Shown piece by piece: positions 31,221 to 61,302 of a stretch of 64,000 nucleotides of DNA. Below the pieces are notes generated by a model that worked only from the letters and a program-made list of their open reading frames with translations, made no database searches and had not been told where the DNA came from. Source of the stretch: Escallonia rubra (Eukaryota; Streptophyta; Magnoliopsida; Escalloniales; Escalloniaceae). The stretch is taken from assembly GCA_033065855.1 (NCBI GenBank), contig JAVXUO010002369.1, positions 1-64,000 on the forward strand, read 5' to 3'. Position numbers and translations under genes: made by a program. Position 1 is the stretch's first letter; every line of letters begins with the position of its first letter.

Positions 31221-31369
31221 TCAGCGTATAAAAATATGGAGTAACGCAACAACTAAATATAGTACTATAGCCCTCTGAGAATTTAGACCGCAAGCAAAAG
31301 ACAAATAGTGAGCCCCTACTAAATGTACTGATCCCGTCAACTCATCCCTCAATTTAATGCTGGAAGAGC
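31221..31369 (-). CDS. Protease last coding exon with hydrophobic C-terminus
   Basis: After the acceptor CTATCAG the exon completes the Cys codon and encodes [20 protein letters not shown], then [12 protein letters not shown] and the apolar tail [16 protein letters not shown], ending with TGA at 31223-31221. A short polar stretch with small residues followed by a terminal hydrophobic run is the usual layout of GPI-anchor signals, so attachment to the outer plasma membrane is inferred. Confidence 0.9.
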
Positions 31370-34300
31370 CTGATAGATGAACCAAAAAAACAAAAACTAG
31401 TCAACACGAAAGAGCTTGTCCCCAAGTTAGTATACTTCCACAGACAAAAATGCCAATCATATGCTTAATTGATAGGAGAGCCAAATTGCATAATACTATC
31501 GCAAGAAGATTGAAACGAAAACTAGACATTGACAATCAACCACGACATAACCACTTTGGTGCCCCACCTGACGTTGGTGCCAGGAATAGATCATTACTAG
31601 ACTGACAGTAATTGCATACTTCTAGTACTAGAAATTACAAATACGACTAGACGCGTTGGAGTTACATAAAAGTTAACTTACGAGCCCTTCATACGAGCTG
31701 AACACCAGAGGCGCCATTTCTATCAACTTACAGTCTTGCCGCCCTTGTGACTTAAAAAATGGATGCACACGACAACGAGCATTCTAAAGTATTTTCACTT
31801 CCCACTAGTCGAGTCTAAGCATAAAAGATGCTTCAACCAAAGGCTGACCATCGTTATCGACTTCGAAGCTACCAAATATTCTGACCGGAGGACTTTCTGA
31901 TTTGGTGATCTCTTTTGATCCTTAAACATGTAGGAAAGAGGACGACATTTCTATATCTTTCAGAATAATCTTACGCCCATTTGCTTAAAATTGCGTCAAA
32001 CCTTAGTTGCACAAAGCGGGGGCGGGGGCGGGAGCGGGAACGGGGGAGGGGGAGCATAAGCACCAAGAAGAATTTGAGGTTGGGAGCGGTTTGAATAAAT
32101 AAATGCATAAAAAGTATTATCATTTGTTTAGTATAATTTACATAGCCAGCAACAACAGACAAGGAGGTTTTAAGGACTTGAAAGAAGAGAGAAACAAGGA
32201 ATTGAGTTGAAAAGGGCTTGATTTTCATGTACTCTCTCATTTGTTCCATGCATTTCTATCCAGCTAACGGGATCGAGTTCCCATATTAGCTTGGGACGAG
32301 ATCCCATGGAACTCCTAACTTGGGATCGCAAAAGCGAGTTTCCGAGAGAGAAACGTCACTATATTAGGAGTTTCCTGCAAGTAAGCGTCAAACATTTACG
32401 TTTGACATTCACCACTTCTCGACACGTATCCCCTTTCTGTTGTCCACACTCCATCTTACAACAAAACACCTAATCCTTAAGAACACGGTTTTACTACATT
32501 CAACATTCTAAAATTCTACCTATACTAATCTATTATGACTTAATATTGACATTTATATCACCAGAAACACTCCATAATATGAAAACCAAAAGCTATATAT
32601 CTCAAAAACGAAAATAACATAAATAACTTAAGGAAAAAAGATACAAAATATCAAATTATCTGTAAGCACCTAAACAGCCAACCTTCAAGACAACTAATCT
32701 TATTTTTGCTATTTTAAGGGAGCGAAGAAAAAATAGATGAGAGCAAGCACAATAACATCAACGTACAACCCATTAGGATAATAGGACATTTGTCATCTTC
32801 CATGTCTTTAAGCCAGTAAGATTATATGCTCTAAATCTTGTCAAAGCCACACAAAAACAGTTAAAAGCATATGCATTGTCATATTGCATTTGTGTCAAAA
32901 CTTGAATGAGATGATATGATTGAACTCTACAATTTATAATTCTATAATCTCAGCTTTTGCGAGACTATTAAACTAAGAGAGTCAACTATATGTGGATAAT
33001 TTTCCACGCCCATTTGTCTTTGGACTTGGATATCATAAAATAGCCAGCCCTTAAACCCAGATTAGAACCTGACATTAGTACTCCATGCAACATGGTTTTG
33101 ACCATATATAGTTGACCGACCCCCTGTCAAAAGCTTTCAAGATGAGAACTTTCCAATTCAAAGGCAGTGGAACTAGGTAAGATATTCGTTGTAGGTATAA
33201 AGATGTGGAAGCAGCCATCTCATGGTTTAAGGCCATTGCTTTCAAGGGCATGAGGAGATCCTAGAGCAATAAGGTCAACCAAAGCTTGAGGCGAGAGGCA
33301 AGGCCCCGCCCGAGTGCAGCAAGTAGCTCCTTGTATGAAATCACGTGGAAATTGTTGAGGCTATATTATCTGGTTGACAAATTTTGGTCTTTTCCTTCTG
33401 TTAGGCTACTTTCCTCATCAGTCATTTTCATTGTAAAGCTCATACTATAAAAGTCATAGGCTATTTAGCAAAAGAGAACCTACACAAAAGTAAAATTAAA
33501 CTAACTCACAGTTATATTCAGTCCACCCAATGGCTTGGTTTTCAAGATCGTACAAGACCAGCTTATTTGATAGCACCAAATCTGCAAGTTTCAGAAGAAT
33601 AATCATGTCATTTAGGAAATCAAGATACCCAAGTTATGAACCAAAAGAAACACTGATGTGGTCCTTCAGAGTAATAATGTATCGGAAAGATTTGTTTTTT
33701 TTTTTTTTTTCCGGGGGGGGCGTTGTTGGGTTGTTTGCAATCCACATACAAGAAAAGCCAGAAACAATTCTACCCAAAAAACCACAACCATAAAAACCTC
33801 TACCAGACCAATTATAAAACAGAATCTATTCTATCAGAAGATCCTGGGAACTCGAATTTGAAAAGAAGAATGCAGCAGGTGAAAAGGAGTGTCAATTTCA
33901 TCAAAAGCTGGGGAAGCCCTCTCTCTCTAAACAGACCACAAAAGACAAAAGTGCTAGCTTCCACATCTTACGCATATCCTGCGTCAACCTGGTCCCTATC
34001 TGATAAAGTTCTCTAACCTAGGAGTGGAGAAAGAGGATCCCCTTCCCTACAACCTCTCAAGTGGAGAAAAACCACGCCAAGGAGAATCATTAACCATAAG
34101 AGAGACCACGAACCGAAGATGTGCAAGCTGATACCCACCCCCTACACATTTCACCAAATCCATCCAATACGTGTTAACATGTCTAACAAAACCTTCCAAT
34201 TAATGCAGCCAGGAGCCTACTCAATATCCAGCTTGCACACGACACCTGCTGTACGTTTCCACACTAATCCTCCAAACATTCTTTAGCAATACCACATCTA

Positions 34301-37300
34301 GGATTTGCCTATATACCAGGAAAGCATTTTGTCTGTGCAATAATACCATCGAACATCGTACACAGCCGAATCAACAAAAATTTAGCCAATAATTTATACA
34401 CAGTATGCACCAGACTAATTTGACCAAAATCTCAAATATCCTTTTCTGTACACAGCCAAATCGACAAAAATTTAACCAATAATTTATACACACTATGCAC
34501 CAGACTAATTTGTCCAAAATCTCAAATATCTCTTTCTCACCTTTCTTCGGCATCAAAGTGATAAAAGAAGCATTAAAACTCTGCTTGAAAGTCCCAAACT
34601 CAAAGGATTCCTGAAACACTGCCATCACACCTTCCTTCAACACATGCCAGTAATGCTGAAAAAGTGCCATGTTGAAGCCACTAGGTCCTAAAGCCTTATT
34701 ACCACTTCAAGCTACCTAAAGCCTCTAACACCTCTTCCTTTGAAAAAAGGTCTCTCCAACCACACTTTATCTTCCACACCAAGAGTCGAAAGTTGCGTAG
34801 CATCTTGAACTGACCTCCAGCCTCCTATTCCTTCTACATTTCTCATAAAAGCGAACAATGTCCACGCTAATCTCCCCATCCTCTGCTAAAGTAGTGTCTT
34901 CAGTCACCACTCGGCCCAAAAGATTGCCTCTCCTATAGCAGAGTTGGTCTCCCATTCTTTCGTCTGTCAGAGAGTAAAAAAGAGGACATCTAATGCCTAG
35001 TGGACCACTTCAGCCACTTGATGTTCCACAGTTGAAGTGGGAGCATGAAACCACTAATGTTGTGGGAGGCTTACTGAGGACAGTCAGGGTTTTGATACTA
35101 TTTGGATGGTTGTTGATAGATTGACAAAGACTGCACACATCCTTTCAATCAGAGCTAGAGGACCACTATATGAGCTACTTAGATTGTTTATGGATGAGAT
35201 AGTGAGGTTACATGGGGTACCACTACCTATAGTGTCAGTTCGAGATCCACATTTTACTTCGCAATTCTACAGTAGTTTCCAGAATTCTATGGGCACCGAT
35301 CTGTGCTTTAGCACAGCTTATCATACACAGGCAGATGGACAGTCCTAATGTACCATTCAAACGTTGGAGGATATGATCAGGGCTTGCACACTAGACCTCG
35401 GTGGTAGTAGGCATAGTCATTTACCTTTAGTTGACTTTGCCTATAATAATAGCTATCAAGCCTGTATGAAGATGGCACCGTTTGAGGCATTGTATGGACA
35501 AAGGAGCAAGACTCCACTATGTTGGGATGAGGTTTGAGAGAGGGGGTTATTTGGACCACAATTGGTATAGTTGACTACTCAGAAAGTTGATTTGATTTGA
35601 GAACGCGTCAGAGCTGCCCAAGACAAACCGCCATCACAAACTTGAGTTTGAGGCAGGTGATCACGTGTTTCTGACAGTTCACCTCGGAAGCTTAACCGTA
35701 GGTTTGTTGGGTCATCCAAGATTGTGGAGAGGACTTGGTCTGGTGGCTTACAGAGTTGCATTAAGCACCAAAAAAGAAAATAGAGTTACATTGCCGCCAA
35801 AGCTTCGCACGGTCCATAATGTTTTCCATGTTTCGTATTGGGATAATACCATTTTAGTCCCCTGAACTATCCCCGATTTGTTATTTTGGTCCCTGTACTT
35901 TAAAATTCGTTAAATCAGTCCCTGTACTTTGTGCCGTCATCAAATAGATCCCTCCGTTGGGATTTCCCGTCCAAAAAGACCACGTGACAGGCACGGGTCG
36001 TTTTTTGAGGGGTATTTCCGGCAAGCGAAGAAGGTATTCTCGGGGTTGACCACCGCCTGCCGCTTGGCAATCTGCCCGACCAGCCGGTCCCCGTTCTTGG
36101 TCCACGCCACGACGGACGGCGTCGTACGCTGCCCCTCGACGTTGGTGATAATCACCGGCTTGCCGCCCTCCATGGCCCCAACGGCCGAGTTGGTGGTCCC
36201 TAGATCGATCCCCACCACCCGGAGCGGGCCCGTGGCGCCGCATCCCTGTCGACCAAAACCTTTAACGACATCATCAACCAATCGTAGTCACCACTGTCAT
36301 CAGCCTGTCAAGCCCTCCTTAATCACCACTACCAACCAACCCAAACCCCCAACTGTCGGCACTTCTACGTCAACCGTTCGGGGCGCGCGGCTTGATCCAC
36401 GAGACGGTGGTCCATGCCCACCCCTGCCCTTTCTTCGGCCACCCTTCCCCACCCGCCCCCTACCCCTGCCCCCTCCGCTAGGTCTGGGGTAGCCTCGACG
36501 CCCTCATCGGCTGCCTCCGCGCCCCTTCGAGGAGAACGGAGGCAAGCCCGAGTCGAACCCGTTCGGGGCGCGCGGCTTTACCTTCTCGAAATTCGCGATT
36601 CGCAGTCCAAAGCACCGGGGGTCAGCTACGAGAAGAAGAAGCGGAAGCGGTCGACTCAGCTGCAGCAACAGCCTCCACAGTTGCCGCCTCCGAGTCGAGG
36701 ATCTCAACTTTCTCGAGATCCGGGTTACTCAAAGGGAGAGGCAGAGAAACAAGCAGAGAGAGAGAGAAGGGGGGGGGAAAATTACTGGGTGGGACTGTCC
36801 ATTTCCGGAAATACCCCTCAAAAAACGACCTGTGCCTATCACGTGGTCTTTTTTGACGGGAAATGCTAACGGAGGGACTAAATTGATGACGGCACAAAGT
36901 ACGGGGACTGATTTAACGAATTTTAAAGTTCAGGGACCAAAATAACAAAACAGGAATAGTTCAGGGGAGTAAAATGGTATTATCCCTTTCGTATTTGAGG
37001 AAGTACGTTCACTATCCGCCACACATTATTCTTTATAAGCCTTTACCTGTTGAGAGGACCTTTATTGTGAGGAGCAACTAGTTAAGATTCTTGACCATTG
37101 TGATCTGGTTTAAGGACGAAAGTCATTCCCTTTTAAGGCAGAACCACGACTTCGGAGAGGCCACTTGGGAGTATTAGAATTCAATGTGACGTGCTTATCC
37201 ACACCTTTTTGACGCATCAAGTACAATTTTAATTCTGAGGATGGAACTTTTATTTTGGGAGGGGAGGATGTTAGACGTCATATATTTAATGCGTTAAATC

Positions 37301-40300
37301 CCAAAAAAAAATTTTACTTTGGTGATTAAGGGCATTTTTTGTAGTTTTTTCTCTTAGTGCATGGCCTAGGAAACAATTCAGAGTTTTTCCCGAATAGTGG
37401 GTAATACTTTTGGAATTAGATGACCCATTTTTATTTGGGGCTATAGTTTGACCAATTTAAAGTAAGTAACGGCAGCAAGTGATTGAGTTCGACTCAGGAC
37501 GAAAAGAGATCTTCGTGAGGTCCTTATACTCATTATGCCTAGCAAGTTCTTACAGGTAAATAATCAACCACCAAGTAGGCTTACAAAGTTGGTCGTGATA
37601 TGATCAAGGGTTTTCTGGGTCGTCTCATCCCTAAACACCATGACGGTCCTAAGGTAGCAAACTTCCTTTTCGGGTATTCCAACTAGGAGTGTTTTATTTG
37701 CATCATTTATATTAGGATCTTCACTTTCATTGGAAAAGCTACATCTAGTACCTGACCAATAAGTTGGGAGAAAGTTAGAGAATTTAGACGTAAAGGGTTT
37801 TGGACAATGCCAGGTGGGTTGTTTATTATCTCAATAGCTAAGATAATAAACAACCCACTTGGCATTGAACCCCAGTAGTGGAAAGTCTATACATTTCACA
37901 GGGCCAAGTGTAACGTATCAGAGTTTGAGTTTCGCGGTTCAATGCCAAGCGAGCTGTTTATTATCTCAGCCATTGCGGCTCGTAGTTTGCTTTGTAAGGG
38001 CTATAAGGGTTACAGTGCACATGTCCTTAACCTAAGCATAAAGGTCTCGAGATATTAAACAATACCAGGAGCATGCAACTTCCCCGAGGTATTTCCTGAG
38101 GAGTTGCCAGGAAAACTCATCGATCGTGAGGTTGAATTCATTTCCAGAGCTTTGTATCAAATGGTGCCTGCAGAGATGAAGGAATTAAAGGAACAGCTTC
38201 AAGAGCTACTTCATAAGGGGTTTATATGCCCTAGCGTGTCACATTGGGGTGCCCCTGTCTTATTTGTCAAGAAGAAGGATGACACTTTGAGACTTTGCAA
38301 CGACTACCGTGAGTTGAATAGGATGACCATCCGTAACAAGTATCCATTGTCACGCATAGATCGTTTGTTTAACAAACTTCCAGGAGCAATGTTCTTCTCC
38401 GAGATAGGTTTGCATACTGAATACCATCAGCTGAATGTTAGGATAGAAAATGTGCCAAATGCGAAGGATAATCAAATGCGAGTTTTGGCTTGACCGAGTT
38501 ACATTATGGAACATGTGGGGTCCAAGGATGGAAGAGTTGTTGACCCTCTTGGCAAAGGCCTAGCACTGCTACAAAACTACGAAGCTTTTTGAGATTAACG
38601 GGTTACTACCGTCGATTTGTAGAAGATTTTTTTGAGAATACCTACGCCTTTAAGACAATTGACTAAGAAGAACACCCGACTTGTTTGGAGCAAGGAGTGT
38701 GAGGCCAGTTTTCAAGAACTGAAGAAGAAATTGGTGTCTACACCTGTGTTGACCTTACCATCTGGTTTTGAAGGTTTTGTAATATGCAGTGATGCCTCAA
38801 AGAGATGCTTAGGTTGTGTTGTGATGCAACATGGTAAGGTGATTGTGTATATTTCTAGACAGCTTAAGCCTTACGAGCAGAACTACCCAACCCATGATCT
38901 CAAGTTAGTAGCTGTGATTTTTGCTTTGAAGATATAGAGGCATTACTTGTATGGTGAGTTATACACTTATTATAAAAGTCTGAAGTATATTTATACCCAG
39001 AAGGAGCTCAACATGAGACAGGAGCGTTGGTTGAAGCTTTTAAAAGACTAGGACTGCACCATTCACTAACACCTTGGTAAAGTGAATATGGAAGATGCAC
39101 TTAGTAGGAAGAGCACTAGAAACTTAGCAGCGTTGATCACTTGTCAACCTCAATTGTTGGTAGGGATGATGAACTTGGATCTCAAGATCAGATGGCAAGA
39201 TTCTTGAGAGTACTTGGCAGCACTACAGGTAGAACCTACCTCAATCATCAGGATCTAGGAATCTCAAAAAGGAAATTCAGGCATAGCTCATATCATCTGA
39301 AACATTAGGAAAAGGAAAAAATCTAGTTGACGAGCAAGGTGTGGTTTGATTTTGAAAGAGGCGTTGTATGCCAACTGATATGTCCATGAGGAGAGAGTTA
39401 TTGTCAGAGGCCCATAGCTCTAGTTTCTTCGTCCACCCAAGAGGAGTAAAGATGTATTATAACCTTAAGGAGCATTTTGGTGGAGCAACACGAAGTCAGA
39501 TATAGTAGAGTTTGTCTTCCATTCATTGGTCCGTTCGACAGTGACGACGAAACATCAGAAGCCTAGCGTAACTTCAGCCACTTGAGATTCCGCAGTAGAA
39601 GTCGGAGCATGTAACCACTGATTTTGTAGGAGGCTTACGGAGGACAAGGGTTTGTACTAATTGAATTCTTCTTGATGGATTGATAAGCTACACATTTCCT
39701 TCCGATCAGAGCTACACCACCACTTTCTGAGCTAGTTAGATTGTATATTGATGAGATAGTGAAGTTGCATGCGATATCCACATTCTACTTCGCAATTTTG
39801 GAAGAGCTTTCAGAATTCTATGGGCACCGACCTCTGTTTCAGGACCGCTTATCACCAACATATAGATGGGCAATTCGAACCTCCCATATAGACATTAGAA
39901 GATATGTTGAGGGCTTGCACACTAGACCTCTGTGGTAGTTGGCATAGTCTTTTACCTTTAGCTAATTTGCCCATAATAATAGCTATCAGGCCAGTATTAA
40001 GACGGCTTCGTTTGAAGCATTGTATGGACAGAGGTGCAAGACTTCAATATGCTGGACGAGGTAGGAGAGAGACGGTTATTTAGACCCGACTCAGTACTGT
40101 TGACTAGTCGGGAAGTTGATTTGATTACGAGATGTCTCAGAGCTGCCCATGACAGACAATGCAGCTATACATCTCACTGTCGTCGCAAACTTGAGTTTGA
40201 GGTAGGTGATCACGTGTTTTTTACAGTTTCACCTTGGAAGGGCGTGACGGTTATGGTAAGAAGGCAAGTCAGCCCTAGGTTTGTTGGGCCATTCGAGATT

Positions 40301-49300: not shown

Positions 49301-50886
49301 AAGTGACTGGGGGGAATCCATCATCAACACTGCAGTAGAGAGCAGCAAATATTTCAGACTTAAAACACTTACAACAATTCATCTGAATACTAAGCTAAAA
49401 AGAACAAAGCATCAGGGAGACAATAGGTAAATAGAAGTCTTTTGCTCAAGACGTGTTTATGTTAAGTTCATGCTTTCGAGCAGGAGCAGAAACACATTTA
49501 ATATGATCAGTTCTTACTTTAATAGTGAAAAAGATTGGAGCAGCACACATTGTCTTTCTATACTTCAGAAATGGAACACCTAGAAAATGTCGTCCTGTTC
49601 AGCACAGACAAGTTTGCTAACCACTTATGGAATAGAAAAGCATTCAGCAGTTCATTCAATTGATAAAAGCACACCAAAGACGGTCATTTCTCATCACGCT
49701 AAATCACCAAAGCTTTGAAGGTTAAAATCATGTTGCAGAGAAAACTAGACTAAACCAACACTACAGTAACACCATTCCCAGTGATACTTCTAGAATATTG
49801 TGTCTAACACTTCCGCTCTAACTCATGGCAGTTTGACTATAACTTATGATGAGTTCTGCAACAAAATGGAACCAAAATAAATGATATTAAATCCACACAG
49901 AAGACATCAAGATCCCTTGAAAGGACAACGCTATAGAAAGGTGACCATCACACCGCTACAAAGCAATCCAAATGCTTTTCAGGAACTAGACACCGTCTTA
50001 AGGTCATCAATGAATGTAGAGGAATGGCATAAAACAAGGAACACGTCCTGGAGCAAAAGAAAACCTAGAATCCAATAGGCAAAGGAGACAACCTAGAATT
50101 CACTAGGTAAGAAATCTCAGGAAAAAAAAAAAAGGAGCAAACCTACATATATTGTCCCAAAATAGAATTAATAGAGGCCTTTATACAGGCTACTAGAAAA
50201 TCTACCATAAATGAGAAGATCAAAATGGCTAACCTACAAGCCAGAATCGTGCAAAGCAATTCTGGATATTTATTGAAGTAAATGAGAATGATGTGACATG
50301 TGTGATTGCTATTTTTTGTAAGTATGGATTGTATTTAAGAAACCCCACAGGGGAGGCCAACCCGAGAACAATAATAAAAATTGCAACAAAAAAGGAAACC
50401 CTCCAAAGGCGTACACCTCACGGAAACCACTCAGAAATTGCAAAGCTGGTCCTATGCAGATATCCTCCACAAAATCAATCAATGCACAACCCCATCTAGG
50501 TGCTTCCTCCTTAAGCCAGAAGAAAAGAAGAGACAGGAAAACGAAAGAAACGATTATTAGAAATCTCCACCCCATTAAAAGCATGCTTAATTCTTTCCCG
50601 CCAAATGGACCACAAAAGACACGGCGGCGGTGCTGACCTCCACCTTTTCCTTGAACTCTTTGGCATCCTCAGCCCTATCTTGGTCTACGAAAGATTCTTA
50701 TAGATCTCGGTATCACCCTAGCCACACCAAACAAGGAAAACTTACTACCTTCTTTGCCACCTTTCTAGCCTATCCATACTTAATCACACGTTCTCCTCAT
50801 TCCTGCCCCTGTGCAGCCCCTTATAACATTTCCTCTTTAGCTTAATAGAGTCACAGTGTAACCGCGCTTGGTTGAATTTCTTCACT

Positions 50887-50920
<34 letters not shown>

Positions 50921-53900
50921 CATTAGCATCCGCAGGGACCATCGCAATGCTTTGTTGTAATTAAACAGTCAGATTCCCCTTGCCCGTAGCAGTTCTGAAT
51001 CGACTGTTCGACGCCCCGGGAAGGCCCCCGACGGGGCCGTTCCCAGTCCATCCCCCGGCCGGCACGCGGCAACCCCCTCTCGCCACAAGAGGGGCTCGAG
51101 CAGTGCACCGACAGCCGACAGGTTCGGTACTGGGACCACCGTGTCCAGCCCTCAGAGCCAATCCTTTTCCGAAGGTTACAAATCCATTTTGCCGACTTCC
51201 CTTGCCTACATTGTTTCATTGACCAAAGGCTGTTCACCTTGGAGACCTAATGCAGTTATGAGTATGACTGGGCATGGGAGGCACTCGGTCCTCCAGATTT
51301 TCAAGGGCCACCAAGAGCGCACCTGACACCACAATCCTTCTCTAATCAACATATCCTTAAAAGTGCTTGACCATTTCCTATCCAAATTCCAACACCTAGT
51401 TAGAGGATGTCTCTCACCTTTAACGATTTTATTTCGACACTTGGTATGTCCAGCACTGTCAACCTAGGTTGTATAGTAAGACACTAACCAGGAATGCCCT
51501 TACAATCCTTACATAATACTCGATCCTCCCTCATAGTTAGGAAGAATTATATCTGGCTACAATGAGACCCACCACTAAAGGTAATCATATGCAAGTACTT
51601 AAAGGTGTTTGCTATCATCAATTCACATGCCACTGCAAAATCAAGGACATCTTCTCCTGAATCATTCTTTATCTCCAAAACAAAATCCTTTGTGTACCCT
51701 CTCACAGCCTCAACTAGTTATTCTGACATGCCCATTTCAATGTCCTCCTATAGCAACCTCTCCTCATGGGATATTTGCTACAACTCCATTTACATCCTCG
51801 TAAATTATCTTGATAGAGTCTGCTGGTCCTACCAAAGGAACATGCGTGCTAATTATATTAATAATTGCCTCTCCCATTACTGATTTAATTTATATGATTC
51901 AATCGCCCTTCCTCTCAACGTCTACAACCTCATGTCTTAAACCTTTATCTACTGTAAACCTTTTAAAAATAGAACGCCTAACCGCCATAGTCGCACGAGT
52001 AAACCTAGACCTGATAAAAGGAATGACGCGGTCCTTTATAGTAACCCAGCTAAGAATGAAACAGGTATAGGTAAAATTTACACTCAATCCTACTCGTAGC
52101 CGTTTCCTCGGCCCATACCCACTCATCTGGGTTAGGAAATAACCACAAGTAATCTGTCAATTTGTCATTTTTTTTTTTAATCATCCCATTTTTCCTCTCA
52201 GATTCAATCTTAAAAAGTCAAGTAGCTAACTTAATGGCGCAAATAACGACAAAAAGTAAGGGTTGATGACATTGACCACCCCCGAGGCTTGCCGTTCTAA
52301 AGTAGCAGTGCCTGTTTCCCACACCTCTGCTGCCATTGTCTGTTTCAAAACCTCCTTAGGGTAATTGAAAATTGTCTACAAAACCCTTGTTATAATCAGG
52401 ACTCCCCAATATAAAATGCAAAATGAGAAAATTGTCTTTACTTTTCTTCTCTTACTCGGTTAATGAATGTTTCTATCTCCCTCTACACGCATTCTAGTGC
52501 CACACTATCGCCAACGCCCACAACCTTCATCACCCTGACTCCAGCTTTCAAACCACCAACATCCTCAAGCATCCTATGCGCCCCTCTCTATGGTCCTGAA
52601 AAGAGCCCCTAAGACCTGCATATATGCCCCCAATCATTGTCGATCACTCGATCCTCTCTTTCCACCCATCTCGCCCCCCTTTTTGCACCAGTCCCTCCTT
52701 GCGAATCCCAACTTGATGCAAAGTCATGTAAATATGTACAGCTTCTAAGGAGTTTTTATTTCAAGTATTTTCTGTAGTATTTATGTCAGGGGTAGTATTG
52801 TCTTTTCAGTTTGGTCTCTAATCTGAGTCAACTCTGAACTTTTGGGGTCTTTTGTAAAAATACTTGTATGCTTGGGGAGCTAGAAAAGTCTGAAATTAGT
52901 GGGAGGGGTTTGTGTGCAAAGTTCTAGCTTCTCTTGGAAGATTAGAGTTGGCTTCTCAAGGAAGCTTTGGGGTTGGTATAAAAGAAGGCAAGTCTGCCTT
53001 CTCTAGGGGACTTTTGAAGAAACAGAAAAAGAAGACTATTAAGATTGAGCTCAGCTCCACCCCAGCTAGGGTTCTCAAGCATTGGAGGCTTGGGTTTTGA
53101 GGATTCAACCCCGTGGCGCCTTCCGATCCCTCTACCGCTGCTATATGCGCGAGAGGCCAGCATAAAGCCACTGTTTCCTGTGCTATTCTCTGCTGCTCAG
53201 ATCTAAAGGGTGTTGTTTGAAGGAACTCAGCCTATGTAATCTAAGTATGCGCATATCTTTGCATCCTTAATTGCATCAACTGGTATCTAGAGCAAGTTCT
53301 TTCTTTGGGGCTGCTTGTTTCCTTACTTTGGGTGGTTTGAGCTGCGAAAAGCATGGCTGCAAGAGGTGGAAGAGGCGGAAGAGGTGGAAGGGGTCGTAGG
53401 GGCAGAAATGTAACCGTAGACATGTTTGAAGAGTTGAAAGATCAAGTTCAAAATCTCACCCAACTGGTTACTCAGTTAATTAATAACCCTAACCATGGAA
53501 ATGACAGTGATAATGAATCTGATCGTGTTCGAGATGCTGCAAATGAACCGAATCACTCAACTGAGGAAGAAAGTGATAATTCAAGTGATGGCAGAAGGCC
53601 TGAATTGCATAGGGGTGCTCGAAATAATAGAGGACATCAAGGATGGGAAGATCGCATAGTACATGCTCTACAGAATTCGAAAGAGTATGGCGTCCAAGTG
53701 CATATTGCTGAATTTGATGGTGACATGGAACCAGAGGGTTTCTTAGATTGGATGGACAGCATTGAAAGTTATTTTGATTGGAAAGAAGTACCTGAAGGGA
53801 GGAAGGTGAAACTTGTAGGAGCAAAGCTAAGAGGTCCAGCTTCTACGTGGTGGAAGCATTACCAAAATGATAGAGATTCAAGGAGAAAAGCAAAAATTCA

Positions 53901-56900
53901 GAGGTGGGATAAAATGAAGGAGAAGTTGAAAGCTCAGTTCTTGCCTCGGGATTATGACCAAACTCTGTACCAAAGGGTGCAAAATTTATGGCAGCATGAG
54001 AAGACGGTGAAGGAGTACACTCAAGAATTCCATAAATTGTCATTGCGGAGCAATCTTGCTGAAACGGAGAGCCAAAAGGTTGGTCGTTATGTGAATGGCC
54101 TTCGACTAGCCATTCAAGATCAAGTGAGCCTGCAACGCCCTTATAAAGTCAGTGATGCTTATCAGCTTGCATTGAAAGTTGAAATCCAGCTCACTTGTAG
54201 TTCCTCTAGAAAGCTTGCTTACGAGCGCAACAACAATGCTTCAACTAGTAGAGCAAATAACACCACTCGCGGTGGCCGTACAATTGCTCCTATGCGTCCT
54301 CAACAACAAGCAAACACCAATGGTGGGAGAGTCGTCCAAGGGCGACCCAATAATCAGGTTGAAATTGCTGGAAAATGTTTCAGGTGTTTTGAGTTTGGGC
54401 ATAAGTCTAACCAATGTCCAAAAAGAGCTGATATTCGGGTTAATCTTTCTGAGGACCAAGAGGCTCGATTCGAGGAAAACTTTGCTAATTTTGAAGGTGA
54501 AGACCTCGTGGATGCATGTGAGTCAAATGTTTTTGACGAAGAGGGAATTGAAGGTGATGTCATTGGAGAAGCACTTGTTATTCGACATTCTATGCTTGCA
54601 CCACCAGCTAACAACAACCAAGATGATTGGCTGCGAAAGAATATTTTTCGCACACGTTGTACGGCGGAGGGGAAGCTTTGCAATCTAATTATAGACAGTG
54701 GCAGTAGCGAAAATCTGATTTCTCAAGAGATGGTTGACAAGTTAAAGCTTAAAACCGGGAGACATCCGCAGCCATATCGCATCCTTTGGTTCAATAAGGG
54801 AAACGAGGTAATGGTTTCATCAAAGAGGCGGTGTATTGTGATGTCGTTCCCATGGATGCATGCCATATTTTACTTGGTCGACCTTGGCAATATGATCGAA
54901 AAACGATGCATGATGGTGTTCAAAACACTTATTCTTTCTTCGTAAAAGATGGCGAAAGAAAAAAGAAGCTTGTTCTAAAGCCAATGAAGGATGATATAGC
55001 AAAGAAGGGAAAGGGCTGCTCTGCTACACTTCTGAATATTCGTGACTTTTTGGAAGAAAGTAAAGAGAGTGGGATTGTGTTTGTTCTTTTTGGGAAGGAG
55101 GAGATGCAGCCACAAGTGGTGCCAGCAAGTGTGAGGGAACTCCTAGAGGAATTTAAGGATGTTATGCCTGATGAGTTGCCGGAAGGATTACCACCAATGA
55201 GGGATATACAACACCACATTGATTTGGTGCCTGGAGCTGTCCTACCAAACCTACCGCACTATAGGATGTGTCCCAAGGAACATGAGGAGCTGCAGAAGCA
55301 AGTTTCAGATTTACTCAAGAAGGGGTTCATCCAAGAAAGTCTAAGTCCTTGTGCTGTGCCAGCTTTACTCACACCAAAGAGGGATGGGACTTGGAGAATG
55401 TGTGTGGACAGCAGGGCTATAAATAAGATAACCATCAAGTACCGGTTCCCTATACCAAGATTAGATGATATGCTTGATATGTTGTCTGGTTCAAAAGTTT
55501 TTTCAAAGATTGACTTAAAGAGTGGTTATCACCAAATAAGAATCCGGGGAGGAGATGAATGGAAAACTGCATTTATGACCAAGGAGGGGCTCTACGAATG
55601 GTTGGTTATGCCGTTTGGGCTATCAAATGCTCCGAGTACATTCATGAGATTCATGAATCAAGTGCTCAAGCCTTATATTGGGAAGTTTGTAGTTGTGTAC
55701 TTCGATGATATCTTGATTTATAGCAAAGATCGTGCAACCCATGCAGGAAACATAAGGGCTGTTCTACAACTTTTGAGGCAAAATCAGCTTTACGCCAATT
55801 TCAAAAAGTGTTTTATGGTAGACCGATTGGAGTTCTTGGGATTTGTTGTGTCAGCCCAAGGAGTAGAGGTTGATCCTGTAAAGATTCAAGCAATTACAAG
55901 CTGGCTTTCCCCAAGGACAATAACTGAAGTCAGAAGTTTCCATGGATTAGCTACATTTTACAGGTGGTTCATCAAAAACTTCAGCACTATAATGGCTCCA
56001 ATTACTGAATGTATGAAGGGTGGAAAGTTTACTTGGAGCTTAGAGGCTGAAAACAGTTTTCAAGAGATAAAGAGGAGAATGACTCAAGCACCTATACTAA
56101 CTCTACCAGACTTTGAAAAGATTTTTGAGGTGGATTGTGATGCTTCTAAGGTAGGAGTTGGTGCTGTTTTAAGTCAAGCGGGGCGTCCAATCGCGTACTT
56201 CAGTGAAAAGCTCAATCAAGCTCGGCAAAATTATTCCACGTATGACGTTGAGTTTTATGCTATTGTTCAAGCATTGAAATTTTGGCGACATTATCTGATC
56301 CAAAGAGAGTTTATCTTGCATTCGGATCACGAAGCTTTGCGCTACCTCAACTCTCAAAAGAAGCTAACTCGGAGGCATGCAAAGTGGGTGGCATTTCTAC
56401 AAGAATATACATTTTCTCTTCGACACAAGGCTGGTTTCCAAAACAAAGTTGCCGATGCTTTGAGTAGAAGAGTTTATTTGTTAAAAGCCATGTCAGCTAG
56501 AGTTGTTGGGTTGGAAGTGATCAAAGAGCAATACAAAGAAGATTCTTATTTTCAAGAGATATTAGAGAAACATGCAGCTCGGGACAGCAATGTATGTTCT
56601 GCCTTTGTTGTTAACGATGGTTATTTGTTCAAAGGCGTGAAGTTATGTATACCAGAAAGTTCGTTAAGGGAGCTTTTGATTGCTGAACTGCATGGAGGGG
56701 GCCTTGGTGGTCATTTTGGCAGGGATAAGACGCTGAATTTGGTGTCTGAAAGGTACTTTTGGCCTACAATACGGAGAGATGTGTATCGCTATGTCACTAG
56801 GTGTTATACGTGCCAAGTATCTAAAGGACAACAACAGAATACAGGTTTGTACACTCCACTACCAATTCCTATGGTTCCATGGGTTGACGTTTCTATGGAT

Positions 56901-59900
56901 TTTGTATTGGGGCTACCACGGACAGCAAGAGGGGTTGATTCCATTTTCGTCATAGTTGATCGATTTTCAAAGATGGCTCATTTCATAGCATGTAAGAAGA
57001 CTTTAGATGCAACCCATGTGGCAACTCTTTTCTTCAGAGAAGTGGTTAAATTACATGGTTTGCCCAAAACCATCACATCTGATCGAGACACTAAGTTTCT
57101 TAGCCAGTTTTGGAGGACCTTGTGGAGATTATTGGCCACTAAATTGCAATATAGCAGTGCATATCACCCTCAAACAGATGGGCAAACAGAAGTAGTAAAC
57201 CGTAGTTTGGGAAATTTGTTAAGATGCCTGGCCAAGGACAACATTAAGCAATGGGATTTGATCTTGCCTCAAGCTGAATTTGCTTATAATAGTACTGTGA
57301 ATAGGTCTACCGGAAAGAGCCCTTTCCAGTCCATCTACGGGCGAAACCCCAACCAGGTTGTCGACCTTATGGATGTGTCAAATCTGTCACAAGCTAGTGA
57401 CGATGCTCTGGCCTATGCTGAAAATCTAAAGGAGGTTCAAGAAGAAGTTCGAGAGAAGTTGGCTGAGATGAATCAACGCTACAAAGAAGCAGCTGATCGC
57501 CACCGGAGGTTCAAAGAGTTCAAGGTTGGGGACTTCGTTATGGTTTTCCTCCGAAAAGAAAGGCTTCCAACGGGTACTTATCACAAATTAAAAAGCAAAA
57601 AGGTTGGTCCATGCAAGATATTATGGAAATTTGGTGATAATGCCTATGAAGTAGAACTCCCTCGTGGTCTAGTCATATCCCCCATCTTTAATGTGGCAGA
57701 TATTTACACCTTTCATGGTGATACACATGATGAATTAGGGGCTGTTGGAGTTAAAACATCAAGTGAGGTTTCCACAAAACAAAAGGACAGGGTTGAAAGA
57801 GTGATTGATATCGGAGAAATTAAGACAAGAGCAGGTGCATATTTAAGGTTTCTCGTGAAATGGGCGGGACAACCAGACTATGAGAACTCATGGTTAAGCG
57901 AGGAGGAGTTTATGAAGATCAACCCTGAGATGTGCCAAGTCACAAAAATGGCAACTCGCACGGAGGCGAGTTCTTTCTAACAGGGAGAGAATGATGCAAA
58001 GTCATGTAAATATGTACAGCTTCTAAGGAGTTTTTATTTCAAGTATTTTCTGTAGTATTTATGTCAGGGGTAGTATTGTCTTTTCAGTTTGGTCTCTAAT
58101 CTGAGTCAACTCTGAACTTTTGGGGTCTTTTGTAAAAATACTTGTATGCTTGGGGAGCTAGAAAAGTCTGAAATTAGTGGGAGGGTTTTGTGTGCAAAGT
58201 TCTAGCTTCTCTTGGAAGATTAGAGTTGGCTTCTCAAGGAAGCTTTGGGGTTGGTATAAAAGAAGGCAAGTCTGCCTTCTCTAGGGGACTTTTGAAGAAA
58301 CAGAAAAAGAAGACTATTAAGATTGAGCTCAGCTCCACCCCAGCTAGGGTTCTCAAGCATTGGAGGCTTGGGTTTTGAGGATTCAACCCCGTGGCGCCTT
58401 CCGATCCCTCTACCGCTGCTATATGCGCGAGAGGCCAGCATAAAGCCACTGTTTCCTGTGCTATTCTCTGCTGCTTAGATCTAAAGGGTGTTGTTTGAAG
58501 GAACTCAGCCTATGTAATCTAAGTATGCGCATATCTTTGCATCCTTAATTGCATCACAACTCCATCATAGCCAACAAACAGATTTGCCACTCAAGATTGA
58601 AGCACGTCAACCAAATTGCAACATGACCAATTTTTATGAAAACCCCAAATTCCACTAATGATTCATAATTACACCAAATTTGGTTCTTGGTGTAAACTTG
58701 CAACAACTTCTACCTGCATACTCATCACGCCATCATGACATTCAGTCGTCACCATAACCAAATTCTTGCCTCCATACCTTAAACCTACCAAAAGACCCGA
58801 TGTCAACAGCACAAGAACAGAAGAGGGAGTTGAGGTTCAGGGGATTGGAGTTTAAGATGGTCTGAAATTAGATTACTTAGAACTCTGAATTTGCATTTTG
58901 GGATGTGATTTATAGCTCAAGTGGAGGGGAGATGGAGCGGCTGTTTATGTGCTCAGTACGAAGTATGCCATTGCAGAATCTGCTAACTTTTACGGCACTG
59001 GACATCGAAGGTCCCTCATGGTGGTGGTGGCTGTTTCTGTGAGAGCTCAGGGAGCTCAAGGAAGGTTAAGATGGTGAATAAGCAGAGCTGGAGTAATGAA
59101 GAGGTCAGACAGATGTTATTAGACCAGCAACGCCCTTATTTTCCCGAATAACTACAGCTAACCAGGGGACCAGATCCGAGACAACGCAAACATACTAGGT
59201 AAACAAGATCATATAACACACGCAAGACGAGCAAGATCATGCAAGCAAGGAGGCCCTGTCTCATACATCCTGAAGATCTTAACTGATTCCTCGCTATTAC
59301 GTCGATCAACCAAATACCCTGATCAACACGAACTAAACCTTAGCCAGGCACACGCTAAAAACCCTCGTGGTCAGATAACTACAAATACCAGCCCGCACAA
59401 CTCTTGAACAAGGGGGACCAGAACAAGCACATTTAGCACATGTAACCTCAACTCAAATTACTTTTACGCAAGTGTATGCAAGTGCTAAGTGTTTAATTCA
59501 TACAACCTCGGATTTTAAGAACAAGTAATCAATTGCAACTCATCTTTAACAATGCAATAGACTGATATGCCAGGCAACTAGGCCCTGCCACTACCACCAC
59601 ATATACTCTATGCGAACACTGATTCATCACACGGTGAGGTAGGCAAATTACTAAACAGTTAACAAAGTCCTCCGTACTCTCATTATCCACCGTCGAATCC
59701 TCTGTGCAACAGACATGACATGAAAGGACATAGTGTAACCTTCTCCATCATGGAACCACAAAACCCCAGTTTTCCTGCCTCCAACACACCACCATGACAT
59801 GTACGTCACGTATTAATGTTTCCATTTACCACCATGGCATGTAATAAGTTCAACGGTTAAAGCATATAGAAGCTTAAAAGAAGAAGTTGAAGAACCATGT

Positions 59901-61302
59901 GCGAACGTTGGGTTATACTCTCTCAATAGGATGAGATACTTATTCCACGGAGCTCTCGTCAATAACTGATTTCAACAAGAATCCCATTTTAAAGTCTACC
60001 AATATTTCATCCTTTGATTTCATAGTTATATATGTATGAAATGAGGCTACAAGGAAATGTTATATCGTCAACTTGTACAACTCTATCTAATTGAAAAATT
60101 CTTTTCCAATTTCGAGTGATGAAAAGGGAAGCAAGGAAGAAGATATCCCTTGCCTACATGATTAATCCATTTGACTGAAACCGAACAGAAAAACTTCCAA
60201 GAAGTCCCTTCATAATCGAAGCTGCCACATTTACTAACAGGAAAATTATTACCTCTCCAAAATTATCACCTACACAGACGAAGATAATCTGCGAAGGACT
60301 CAAATCAGCAGTTGATTGCACAATCTATGAATACCCCGCTTATTTTTTATTTTTTTTATGACAAACTATATTTTTTTTAATAAGTATCTTCTGTTATGTT
60401 TGTAGCTTATTATAAGATACATATCATGTGTGCTATAGTTTTTAAAGAACTAAAGGGGTGCTAAGGTTGCATTAAACCCAACTGATTATTGAACCAGTAG
60501 GGATAAATTTGGAAAGTCAGCACTAAGAGGAGGAGAGACAGAAACAAGAAAACAGCTCTCAAAATATGGAGACACAGTAACCAGAATACAAATACGACTG
60601 AATGATTATTTTTTCAACAACCGATTATTTCATTACATCCAAGGTCCTTTCATAGGACAAGCTGAACAAATCAATTCATAATTAACGGGACTTCTGAATC
60701 AATCTCTGGTCAATTTAATAAAATCACCTAAAATAAAGAGAATTAAACCATAAAACATCTTGAGCGACTGCACTTGCGCCTACCTCGCCGTGGGAGCGTA
60801 ACCTCTTTCAAGGCGCATAAATCCCATCTGGATTCCCATCACTAACTTAAGGATTTAAGAATACAATCGCATTCCACAAAACCTGATTATCGACATTTTT
60901 TTATAACAGAAACTAATACCATTATCAAACAGAACCATGAAATATGATCAATTATTCACCATACCTTCCAGCGTACTCAAAGCATGTATATTGGTCATGA
61001 AGAGTACGCAATTTCAAATCAGACTGCCAGGAGAGTATCTAAAAAAATTAAGGAAATAGATAAAACATGTAAGTTCACGAAACAGCGGATCTCCAACTTA
61101 ATCTTTGCTAAAGTAAATCAATGCAAAAATAAAGGTTACCTGTTTAAGTAATGCTTCGTAAATCACTTCTGGAAGGTAAGCTAAGGTTGTACCACTGTCG
61201 AGTATTGTCCCTTTCTTATCTCCAACCCCAAACACATCTGTCGTAAGATTTAGAAAATCACGACCAACTTCAACTGCCGTCATATTGACACTGTAATGTG
61301 GC
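31221..61302 (-). CDS. A1 (pepsin-type) aspartyl protease, 3' half, giant introns
   Basis: Six minus-strand exons join in phase through GT-AG sites: 61302-61140, 61038-60965, 49329-49242, 43645-43570, 33581-33510 and 31369-31221 (stop TGA). Together they give 206 residues of a plant A1 aspartyl protease, a secreted or cell-surface endopeptidase. The second catalytic motif is [10 protein letters not shown] in the first exon seen. Later family marks are [42 protein letters not shown] and [13 protein letters not shown], then a hydrophobic tail ([16 protein letters not shown]) that fits GPI anchoring. Introns are 101, 11635, 5596, 9988 and 2140 bp and hold nearly all transposons of the right half. 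The N-terminal half with the first DTG must lie past 64000. No stop or frameshift is visible in these exons, so the gene may be functional. Confidence 0.9.
31370..33509 (-). other. Protease intron (2.1 kb), no other gene seen
   Basis: AT-rich intron sequence. A G-rich run at 32018-32056 (GGGGGCGGGGGCGGGAGCGG and onward) could form a G-quadruplex. No mobile-element protein is recognisable in it. Confidence 0.55.
33510..33581 (-). CDS. Protease exon, [15 protein letters not shown] segment
   Basis: This 72 bp exon follows AACTTGCAG. Its first two bases complete an Asp codon (LLG-D), then it encodes [20 protein letters not shown] and EYN, and ends with the first base of a Cys codon at a GTGAGT donor. 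The segment is almost invariant among plant A1 proteases of this type. It lies 10 kb from the preceding exon. Confidence 0.92.
33692..34990 (-). pseudogene. Decayed L1-type LINE (RT fragments, C-terminal piece)
   Basis: Read on the minus strand from 34990 there are reverse-transcriptase scraps in broken frames: a [20 protein letters not shown] run and [14 protein letters not shown] (34670-34540), VVCKLDIE and [17 protein letters not shown] (about 34200-34140), and GDPLSPL near 34030. A WRER-type C-terminal piece lies around 33950-33850. The plus-strand T16 run at 33692-33707 is the expected poly(A) tail of the element. Much of the middle is missing and stops are frequent. A 90 bp tandem duplication (34361-34540) lies within it. 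It sits inside a protease intron in sense orientation with the gene. Confidence 0.8.
34361..34540. repeat. 90 bp tandem duplication in LINE ruin
   Basis: CACAGCC-AATC-ACAAAAATTTA recurs at 34361 and 34451 with a 90 bp offset and a handful of mismatches. It is a local duplication after LINE insertion. Confidence 0.9.
34975..35839 (+). pseudogene. Degenerate Ty3/gypsy integrase (copy A, first part)
   Basis: Plus-strand remains of a gypsy integrase: [15 protein letters not shown] near 35010, the [10 protein letters not shown] stretch near 35105, an [10 protein letters not shown]-like run near 35200, a [11 protein letters not shown] motif near 35310-35348, and the HNVFHVS motif that follows the integrase core (35816-35835). 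Several stops and frameshifts break it. It is cut at 35839 by the Pack-MULE insertion and continues at 36987 with LRKYVH. The first integrase aspartate and zinc-binding region are not recognisable. Confidence 0.8.
35831..35839. repeat. Target-site duplication TTTCGTATT (left)
   Basis: The 9 bp TTTCGTATT flanks the Pack-MULE on both sides (again at 36987-36995). Confidence 0.97.
35840..36986. mobile_element. Pack-MULE, 1147 bp, with captured gene fragments
   Basis: Terminal inverted repeats are 182 bp each (35840-36021 and 36805-36986), start GGGATAATACCATTTTAGTC or near-identical, and differ at roughly 14 sites. A perfect 9 bp target duplication marks it as a Mutator-like element. It has no transposase; instead the GC-rich interior carries a chloroplast-type HSP70 fragment and at least one other protein-like piece (36504-36707, minus; contains [20 protein letters not shown]). 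The string CGTTCGGGGCGCGCGGCTT occurs twice inside (near 36380 and 36559). It split an older gypsy integrase, so it is the younger insertion. Confidence 0.93.
36022..36224 (-). pseudogene. Captured N-terminal fragment of chloroplast-type HSP70
   Basis: The minus strand encodes the start of an HSP70 ATPase domain: [20 protein letters not shown], then [20 protein letters not shown] and [16 protein letters not shown]. The phosphate-binding loop GIDLGTTNS is intact. The SAV-AMEGGKP and [23 protein letters not shown] versions match stromal (chloroplast) HSP70s rather than cytosolic or mitochondrial ones. Only about 65 residues are present, ending at the MULE inverted repeat, so it cannot make a chaperone. 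The capture probably took one exon from the parental gene. Confidence 0.88.
36987..37268 (+). pseudogene. Gypsy copy A, region after integrase
   Basis: The sequence resumes the interrupted frame with [20 protein letters not shown] (36999-37058), a typical post-integrase stretch, and continues with eroded chromodomain-region sequence to a purine tract GGGAGGGGAGGA just before an LTR-like start at 37269. Confidence 0.7.
37269..37560 (+). other. Probable 3' LTR start of gypsy copy A
   Basis: TGTTAGACGTC directly follows a polypurine tract, as expected for a 3' LTR. The opening resembles that of copy B at 40655 (CGTTAGACCCC, then TTAAATGCATTAAATC). Its end is not clear, so the right coordinate is nominal. 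Confidence 0.5.
37641..37684 (+). other. 23S rRNA-like fragment (bacterial/organellar type)
   Basis: ACGGTCCTAAGGTAGC is identical to the highly conserved core around helix 69-71 of bacterial and chloroplast 23S rRNA, and the next 25 bases match it with about five changes. Nuclear 25S rRNA differs at this place, so the source looks organellar. Flanking sequence on both sides does not match rRNA. It is far too short to function. Confidence 0.5.
37805..37968. repeat. Long hairpin plus a third copy
   Basis: CAATGCCAGGTGGGTTGTTT at 37805 and its inverse complement ending at 37867 form a hairpin of about 27 bp with one mismatch and a loop near 10 bases. A third, more divergent direct copy lies at 37940-37968. 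It is located between gypsy copies A and B. Confidence 0.9.
38050..40654 (+). pseudogene. Degenerate Ty3/gypsy pol (copy B)
   Basis: The plus strand holds RT palm scraps: [20 protein letters not shown] and the [17 protein letters not shown] stretch (about 38254-38370). The DD catalytic region is deleted, so RT jumps to [10 protein letters not shown] near 38600. RNase H follows ([20 protein letters not shown], 38775-38835; [13 protein letters not shown]), then integrase remnants (39545-40060) and [15 protein letters not shown] and [15 protein letters not shown] (40180-40300), ending with VHNVFL. Many stops. It ends at a purine tract and LTR-like start at 40655. It is related to copy A but not a close duplicate. 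Confidence 0.85.
40655..42342. other. Gypsy copy B LTR start and unassigned intron sequence
   Basis: The first 300 bp (CGTTAGACCCCGAATATTAA onward) look like a decayed 3' LTR. The rest is unassigned; two stretches around 41420-41500 and 42050-42140 resemble each other loosely (TAAG-ACCTACTT, then GTGG-GGGGCT), perhaps old retroelement sequence. No gene supported. Confidence 0.4.
42343..42876. repeat. 267 bp tandem duplication, nearly identical
   Basis: Copies 42343-42609 and 42610-42876 differ at only one position that I can find (CTTCGTCGTT against CTTCGTAGTT). The unit holds no recognised gene. A smaller 30 bp repeat (CCAATGGCAACAAAGCTCGC) follows at 42965-43020. Confidence 0.95.
43021..43569 (-). 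other. Protease intron, no other feature seen
   Basis: AT-rich intron sequence running up to the CIGWQN exon. Confidence 0.5.
43570..43645 (-). CDS. Protease exon, CIGWQNNG segment
   Basis: This 76 bp exon begins with GAA after TTTTTTACAG and ends before GTGTGC. It encodes [20 protein letters not shown] and MTLLG plus one base of the next codon. The frame follows directly on FPF of the previous exon. The longest open frame over this spot is a different, meaningless frame, so the exon is easy to miss. Confidence 0.9.
43646..47636 (-). other. Protease intron (first 4 kb), no gene seen
   Basis: AT-rich. Small repeats occur: GATTGTCC-ATTTCAACTACACC at 46918 and 46966, and TGTGATGCTC at 46747 and 46783. 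Open frames such as 45943-46146 plus carry no recognised domain. Confidence 0.5.
47645..48384. mobile_element. Short terminal-inverted-repeat element, 740 bp
   Basis: The ends read CTAAAAAGCACCGACACC on the left and, inverted, CTAGGTAGCACGGACACG on the right. The 8 bp TCTATGGT flanks both sides (47637-47644 and 48385-48392). Inside, GGTGTC/GACACC motifs are clustered near both ends (TCCGACACCTCTC, GTGTCGGACACC and so on), like subterminal binding sites. There is no coding capacity. The 8 bp duplication and the C-TA-G start favour a hAT-related non-autonomous family; a shared extra G could make the duplication 9 bp. A second copy begins at 63955. Confidence 0.8.
48393..49241 (-). other. Protease intron, possible LTR/primer-site remnant
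   Basis: TAGTTACAGTTGG is repeated near 48443 and 48458 and followed by GGTACCAGAGATTAGGG, which resembles an LTR end and a decayed tRNA-iMet primer site in plus orientation. No coding parts follow. Otherwise unremarkable. Confidence 0.35.
49242..49329 (-). CDS. Protease exon, [14 protein letters not shown] segment
   Basis: This 88 bp exon is bounded by CTACTGCAG and GTAAGC. Its first base completes the Ser codon left open by the exon at 60965, although 11.6 kb of intron with a whole retrotransposon separates them. It then encodes 29 residues ([20 protein letters not shown] and YPHEYLFPF), a canonical stretch of the family, and ends in phase 0. Confidence 0.92.
49330..50305 (-). other. Protease intron, no feature seen
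   Basis: Unassigned AT-rich intron sequence. Confidence 0.5.
50306..50837 (-). pseudogene. L1-type LINE C-terminal fragment
   Basis: Read on the minus strand from about 50640, a [20 protein letters not shown] stretch shifts frame into [20 protein letters not shown] and FVEDI, the typical end of plant L1-type ORF2 (W--WRERN---F, then FW---------DFVD). Sequence from 50837 to 50640 looks like eroded LINE sequence upstream of that. A short T6 run near 50313 could be the remains of the poly(A) tail. It abuts the rDNA fragment in the same orientation. Confidence 0.65.
50838..51333 (-). rRNA. 25S (large-subunit) nuclear rDNA fragment, decayed
   Basis: The minus strand matches about 500 nt of plant nuclear 25S rRNA, in sense order from GGTGTCAGGTGCGC (51333) to GTGACTCTATTAAG (about 50840). 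Strong segments are CACTTTGACATTCAGAGCAC (plus strand, 50883), CAGCCCTCAGAGCCAATCCT (51148), CCATTTTGCCGACTTCCCTT (51184) and CTCGGTCCTCCAGATTTTCA (51283). Most differences I can see from the conserved sequence are C-to-T or G-to-A, as expected for a methylated, non-functional copy; a block of about 12 nt is missing near 50857. It is not part of an rDNA array. Confidence 0.9.
51420..52126 (-). pseudogene. LINE endonuclease domain (RTE-like), decayed
   Basis: On the minus strand from 52126 an apurinic-endonuclease-like domain can be followed through stops: [20 protein letters not shown]-type start, [20 protein letters not shown] (about 51870-51810), GGH-NGHV near 51740, [18 protein letters not shown] near 51595-51545, then [15 protein letters not shown] near 51520. 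The last motifs (a CK-CK-IPG run) are like those of plant RTE-type LINE endonucleases. No reverse transcriptase follows; the next sequence is rDNA. Confidence 0.72.
52127..52708 (-). other. Protease intron upstream of gypsy insertion, no gene
   Basis: Unassigned sequence; moderately C/T-rich near 52480-52700. Confidence 0.5.
52709..52713. repeat. Target-site duplication CAACT (left)
   Basis: The 5 bp CAACT borders the 5' LTR and recurs at 58557-58561. Confidence 0.97.
52714..53278 (+). repeat. 5' LTR, 565 bp
   Basis: Starts TGATGCAA and ends TTGCATCA, an 8 bp perfect inverted repeat. A TATA box (TATAAAAG) lies at 52977-52984. Differs from the 3' LTR at 52908 (G against T) and 53198 (C against T). 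No clear AATAAA signal is visible. Confidence 0.98.
52977..52984 (+). promoter_or_regulatory. LTR TATA box
   Basis: TATAAAAG about two fifths into the LTR; the same box is at 58255-58262 in the 3' LTR. It should drive the genomic RNA, with R/U5 downstream. Confidence 0.7.
53281..53297 (+). promoter_or_regulatory. Primer-binding site, tRNA-iMet type with one inserted base
   Basis: TGGTATCTAGAGC begins two bases after the LTR. It matches the complement of the initiator-Met tRNA 3' end (TGGTATCAGAGC) except for one extra T. Seven bases of perfect pairing remain at the 3' end of the tRNA. Confidence 0.8.
53353..54945 (+). CDS. gag: Gypsy gag with start of protease (530 codons)
   Basis: The protein would package the element RNA. 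It starts with an Arg/Gly-rich run ([18 protein letters not shown]), then a coiled-coil-like stretch, an acidic region, and the retrotransposon gag core at about residues 110-275 ([48 protein letters not shown]). A CCHC zinc knuckle lies at C342, C345, H350 and C355. The aspartic protease motif [13 protein letters not shown] has its active site at D448. From about residue 490 the translation loses protease homology and runs to an unrelated stop, because the protease continues in another frame at about 54831. The start codon is the first ATG after the leader and gives a normal gag length. Confidence 0.9.
54831..57980 (+). CDS. pol: Gypsy pol: RT, RNase H, integrase, chromodomain-like tail
   Basis: This frame (1049 codons, -1 relative to gag) opens with the protease end ([13 protein letters not shown]). 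Reverse transcriptase spans about 150-340, with the active-site FDD at 291-293. RNase H lies at about 425-550, with D435, E474 and D499 as candidate acidic residues. Integrase has its zinc site at H621, H628, C658 and C661, and the core D690, D751 and E787 with the usual 35-residue gap. A GPY-like module reads VGPCKI near 925 with Cys in place of Tyr/Phe. A chromodomain-like tail ([20 protein letters not shown]) lies at about 1007-1026, so the element is a chromovirus; the clade is uncertain. No stop interrupts this frame. The nominal Met at 54831 is probably not a real start: pol is normally made as one protein with gag. Confidence 0.95.
57981..57991 (+). promoter_or_regulatory. Polypurine tract
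   Basis: CAGGGAGAGAA directly precedes the 3' LTR, one codon after the pol stop, and would prime plus-strand DNA synthesis. Confidence 0.85.
57992..58556 (+). repeat. 3' LTR, 565 bp
   Basis: Same length and ends as the 5' LTR (offset 5278 bp), with two substitutions. Followed by the CAACT target duplication at 58557-58561. Confidence 0.98.
58562..60964 (-). other. Protease intron right of gypsy insertion, no gene
   Basis: AT-rich intron sequence up to the exon at 60965. Nothing recognisable as a gene or mobile-element protein. Confidence 0.5.
60965..61038 (-). CDS. Protease exon, [17 protein letters not shown] segment
   Basis: This 74 bp exon lies 101 bp downstream of the previous one, between TTTTTTTAG and GTATGG. 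It encodes [20 protein letters not shown] and four more residues, and ends two bases into a codon. The Cys is one of the conserved disulfide cysteines of the C-terminal lobe. Confidence 0.92.
61140..61302 (-). CDS. Protease exon with second catalytic Asp (DSGTT)
   Basis: The exon is preceded by an acceptor ATCATAG and starts with one base of a split codon, then [17 protein letters not shown] and [20 protein letters not shown]. The catalytic Asp codon GAC is at 61199-61197. It ends in frame with CAG before GTAACC. The PHY-VNMTAV-VG and [10 protein letters not shown] strings are characteristic of the plant membrane-linked A1 proteases. Confidence 0.93.

Follow-up and report, generated by a model that had tools for sequence, protein, structure and literature searches.

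Judged from its sequence, a protease gene of Escallonia rubra with transposon-filled introns is, with high probability, a single and probably functional nuclear A1 aspartic protease gene, in a plant where at least some introns are very long. The DNA analysed (hereafter the window) comprises 64,000 bases, i.e. bases 1-64000 of contig C1483 (192,132 bp), from an assembly of 566 Mb in 3,222 contigs, and holds the C-terminal half of the gene. The first-pass annotation had proposed a single host A1 protease gene running through very long, transposon-holding introns; on these points the proposal is supported, and no intact close copy was found in the assembly.

Exon-intron structure and protein product

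Six exons and five introns had been proposed on the minus strand. All their coordinates and lengths are confirmed, and every intron is GT-AG (Table 1). The codons split as AG+T, G+AT and T+GC are restored as claimed, and the 206 joined residues read without a stop. Compared with Pfam, these residues match TAXi_C at 6.1e-17 (profile positions 1-160 of 161), and chance joining is dismissed on this ground and on that of the similarly built paralogue described below. Upstream exons had been suspected past position 64000, and four were indeed found on the same contig, between 66636 and 72814, by a TAXi_N search of the genome followed by reading of the sequence; the gene has ten exons, the window containing exons 5-10. 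Together, the ten exons (72-365 bp) give 1,590 nt of coding sequence and 529 stop-free residues, counted from a putative start codon chosen as the first in-frame ATG. Their order and orientation are correct, GT-AG sites bound them throughout, nine of the nine junctions close in phase, and no damage, either stop or frame change, was seen in any of them. The gene spans 41,594 bp because six of its nine introns are longer than 2 kb, to which transposons contribute a good part (introns 1-4 measure 227, 82, 4,902 and 5,333 bp). That a list of open reading frames would miss the exons, as had also been stated, is true and unremarkable: the stop-to-stop frames of the six exons are 31-81 codons long, and only that of exon 7 reaches 80.

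Table 1. Features of the gene and of the window (positions on contig C1483, identical to those of the window up to 64000)
Feature	Position	Strand	Remarks
Exon 1	72450-72814	-	beyond window
Exon 2	72093-72222	-	beyond window; VDTGSD motif
Exon 3	71763-72010	-	beyond window
Exon 4	66636-66860	-	beyond window
Exon 5	61140-61302	-	163 bp; LDSGTT, second catalytic motif; placed by splice sites and phase; equal-length paralogue exon
Intron 5	61039-61139	-	101 bp, GT-AG; paralogue 100 bp
Exon 6	60965-61038	-	74 bp
Intron 6	49330-60964	-	11,635 bp, GT-AG; paralogue 4,042 bp
Exon 7	49242-49329	-	88 bp
Intron 7	43646-49241	-	5,596 bp, GT-AG; paralogue 1,342 bp
Exon 8	43570-43645	-	76 bp
Intron 8	33582-43569	-	9,988 bp, GT-AG; paralogue 3,695 bp
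Exon 9	33510-33581	-	72 bp
Intron 9	31370-33509	-	2,140 bp, GT-AG; paralogue 3,407 bp
Exon 10	31221-31369	-	149 bp; TGA at end; hydrophobic C-terminus encoded
Full-length young Ty3/gypsy chromovirus	52714-58556	+	intron 6; antisense to gene; LTRs 52714-53278 and 57992-58556
28S rRNA fragment	50776-51199	-	intron 6; Rfam RF02543, 203.4 bits
Interspersed repeat	47695-48371		intron 7; intron 4 has related pieces at 63956-65720, in part past window end
Tandem duplication	42343-42878		intron 8; 267 bp, 99.6% identical
Gypsy fragment 2 (part of RT, RNase H, integrase)	38059-40686	+	intron 8; stops and frame changes
Gypsy fragment 1 (integrase end)	34934-37300	+	intron 8; interrupted by Pack-MULE
Pack-MULE	35840-36986		1,147 bp; TIRs 185 bp (91%); 9-bp TSD TTTCGTATT
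Open frame within Pack-MULE	35943-36287	-	Pfam HSP70 2.6e-26, profile positions 1-67 of 599
hAT transposase remnant	26287-27821	+	second of two frames: Dimer_Tnp_hAT and hAT-like RNase H
Tandem repeat	24534-24934		81-bp unit, five copies, 87% matches
CACTA (tnp2-type) element	3574-7784	-	Transposase_21, Transpos_assoc, DUF4218 and DUF4216 frames; 573-bp tandem duplication, 97.6% (6602-7174, 7170-7742)

By Pfam, the 529-residue product is a complete TAXi_N plus TAXi_C aspartic protease (E-values for the whole protein: TAXi_N 8.5e-39, TAXi_C 3.9e-16, Asp 1.3e-24). PF14543 is covered over positions 1-175 of 176 and PF14541 over 1-160 of 161, so both xylanase-inhibitor-type halves are present; with both catalytic aspartate motifs in place as well, the protein is recognisable as an A1 (pepsin-like) plant aspartic protease. 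A hydrophobic N-terminal stretch and a hydrophobic C-terminal tail were noted by eye, and the tail, also on visual judgement, may be a GPI signal. When solved structures were searched with the whole protein, only two sequences were returned at E up to 1e-12, both plasmepsin V. With the C-terminal half, 65 sequences passed 0.001, plasmepsin V at the top and beta-secretase making up most of the best 60. The protease is likely of the membrane-anchored A36/A39 type. Enzymes of this type belong to A1, carry both halves of the TAXi type and end in a hydrophobic stretch, features that the present product would have in common with them; its placement among these GPI-anchored proteases is putative. In Arabidopsis, A36 (At5g36260) and A39 (At1g65240) are listed as GPI-anchored aspartic proteases (PMC6726743).

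Insertions in the introns

Intron 6 contains a full-length chromovirus. Its two LTRs, of 565 bp each, differ by two mismatches, and the 5-bp TSD CAACT is present at both sides. It encodes gag, RT, RNase H, integrase (zinc and core) and a chromodomain, in the RT-RNase H-integrase order; the integrase core, at 31.9 bits, falls slightly below its cut-off of 32.6, the other domains being above theirs. Taking 1.3e-8 and 7e-9 substitutions per site and year as rates, the insertion dates to about 0.14-0.25 million years ago. At least 39 further copies of the LTR family were found elsewhere in the genome (best 40 of 95 candidates scored), at least four of them 99-100% identical over 514 of the 565 bases, and the family has therefore probably been active recently.

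The two gypsy fragments of intron 8 are also antisense to the gene. Fragment 1 has kept the integrase end alone, in which a 91-residue stretch is stop-free, while the clear matches of fragment 2 contain three stops and two or more frame changes; decay is thus documented in one of the two only. Undamaged exons beside this decayed fragment argue that coding function outlived its insertion, which favours a working gene. The stretches 34934-37300 and 39501-40686, 75-76% identical, were also considered as the LTRs of one element, and this reading was rejected because both encode integrase (35070-35342 and 39651-39873).

The element that interrupts fragment 1 has the long TIRs, the 9-bp TSD and the captured gene fragment of a Pack-MULE. 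Two other frames in it, scanned against Pfam, matched no family and contained no transposase domain. Pack-MULEs with this HSP70 fragment have been amplified in the genome. Among the best 150 of 439 candidates scored, at least 20 other places match the frame from residue 1-9 to 105-115, a span that covers the HSP70 part and enters the inverted repeat, and at least 10 more match it from residue 30-60 to 113. Eight copies, compared over their longest match, contain the HSP70 part and one terminal repeat at roughly 92-94% nucleotide identity. In seven of them the HSP70 stretch is an open frame; the eighth is shorter and has one stop. For the fragment, pN/pS pooled over nine sequences is 0.55.

The 28S rRNA fragment of intron 6 has its best-scoring other copies in the genome at 86-87% identity, with one 112-base piece at 94%. 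On three other contigs (C312, C1359 and C1478) its flanks are only about 150-165 bases apart, so that the fragment sits within another interspersed repeat. Further 28S-like fragments are scattered elsewhere in the genome. The interspersed repeat of intron 7 is related to a piece in intron 4 of the gene's paralogue (described below) as well as to the intron 4 pieces of Table 1. A repeat common to intron 4 of both genes could suggest an ancestral insertion; this was rejected because the copies are oppositely oriented relative to the gene. The tandem duplication of intron 8 is probably recent.

In total, about 14 of about 40 kb of intron are assigned to elements, a rough lower bound in which 34934-40686 is counted whole. 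Introns 3, 4, 7 and 9 lay outside the genome-wide repeat search, and further elements may be there. The earlier count of at least eight mobile elements within the gene could not be reproduced: those named here comprise three gypsy elements (one of full length, two as fragments), a Pack-MULE, a repeat containing the 28S piece, and an interspersed repeat that occurs in two introns. Both the CACTA element and the hAT remnant are downstream of the gene, outside the introns; the first of the two hAT frames matched no Pfam family.

Paralogue, constraint and alternative readings

The nearest gene, a paralogue on C1881 (1501772-1521086, 19,315 bp), has the same ten exons and shares all intron positions. 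Exon lengths are equal at seven of ten (exons 2, 3, 4, 5, 6, 8 and 9), the paralogue's exon ends having been placed by hand with the C1483 gene as guide. Introns above 1 kb form the same set in both genes (3, 4, 6, 7, 8 and 9), and five of these six are longer in C1483; introns 1-4 of the paralogue measure 805, 130, 1,017 and 3,322 bp. Two further relatives, on C1016 and C2465, extend over about 6.8 and 4.9 kb from exon 2 to exon 9, against 38.7 kb here, part of their exons being found; the former has one intron near 3.8 kb. A fourth, on C582, matched in one stretch only (exons 6-7 region) and was not included when introns were compared. A search of the 566-Mb assembly with the 206 residues found no second close copy: among the 39 matches listed, six are the exons themselves and 33 are other family members, none of which exceeds 72% identity (a value seen over 32 residues). 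Separately, TAXi-type protease or inhibitor matches are densely clustered at positions 104835-193633 of C3004, and several of them lie in open frames longer than 400 codons.

Between the C1483 gene and its paralogue, identity is 58% over 479 aligned residues, with dN 0.32, dS 1.83 and a ratio of 0.17; dS is near saturation, and the ratio for such old paralogues carries little information on the recent past. Lineage-specific differences number 26 in C1483 versus 13 in the paralogue with C1016 as outgroup (283 sites), and 27 versus 8 with C2465 (277 sites). The C1483 protein thus changes faster than its paralogue, and constraint on it may therefore be relaxed; this is a result against simple strong constraint.

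Such faster evolution would fit a recently silenced allele, i.e. a gene that functioned before the chromovirus inserted into intron 6, where transcription would now end or be silenced. With 2 of 565 LTR sites differing, the insertion is so young that exon decay would not show yet. Nevertheless, we regard this reading as improbable: the frame and the splice sites are intact, the chromovirus is antisense to the gene, and LTR elements are reported to be widespread in long introns of Chloranthus (PMC8626473) and grapevine (PMC3058033) genes. Separate pseudogene fragments merely appearing joined might be suspected from exons so small and so far apart, but this was rejected, and we give it hardly any credence, since ten exons lie in order with nine in-phase junctions and canonical splice sites, intron positions are common to the paralogue, and no intact parent copy turned up in the assembly. 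An assembly artefact joining unrelated pieces, and so making introns look long, is just as implausible: the assembly is indeed a draft, in which some contig pairs resemble allelic duplicates (identical matches), but the matching TSDs at both ends of the LTR element (5 bp) and of the Pack-MULE (9 bp) mean that the sequence is consistent across these two inserts, and in the paralogue, too, the same six introns are long (1.0-4.0 kb).

We favour a working gene, in which the introns of a normal gene would have collected insertions that are spliced out of the transcript, the spliceosome presumably joining the ten exons as written. Tolerance of the antisense LTR element would follow from its termination signals pointing away from the gene, and an ordinary plant pathway of the IBM2/ASI1-EDM2 type would deal with heterochromatin, if there is any, on the introns. 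The chromodomain of a chromovirus is expected to favour H3K9-methylated chromatin. A stronger version, which we consider possible but unlikely, is that this conserved protease has kept working despite a recently active chromovirus newly placed in its largest intron, and that its expression depends on anti-silencing machinery; if so, plants with and without the insertion would show this dependence in one natural locus. All three named gypsy elements are antisense to the gene, an orientation in which their termination signals would leave its transcript uncut. Three is a number too small for testing orientation bias; an antisense bias of intronic LTR elements has been reported for human endogenous retroviruses (PMC1794541).

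Comparison with other long-intron genes

Grapevine has 2,697 large introns made of more than 80% repeats, LTR pairs more than 99% identical make up about 30% of the pairs, and prediction programs split the genes that contain such introns (PMC3058033). Transposon-enlarged introns with young LTR pairs are common to that system and to ours, whereas Copia exceeds Gypsy by about 6.5 to 1 in grapevine large introns and the LTR elements identified here are gypsy (PMC3058033). In Chloranthus, 876 of 2,184 orthologues exceed 20 kb, and LTR elements are named as the main contributor to the long genes of Chloranthus and magnoliids, where exon lengths are conserved and introns stretched, as seen here at one locus (PMC8626473). 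Among its 2,184 high-confidence orthologues, that study counts no Arabidopsis gene above 20 kb, against 41.6 kb for the present gene (PMC8626473). In Arabidopsis and rice, heterochromatic introns are reported to be transcribed through with the help of IBM2, and more than 10% of rice genes contain intronic heterochromatin (PMC7145194); the IBM2-dependent genes resemble ours in having TE-bearing introns.

By these comparisons, the length of the gene is unexceptional relative to published long-intron plant genomes. The locus is new, the phenomenon (TE-enlarged introns and read-through machinery) has already been described, and the gene is ordinary in kind; the picture of plant gene structure is left unchanged by it. 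What the locus offers is a clean worked example: insertions of different ages sit in the introns of a gene that might be split or overlooked by simple annotation.
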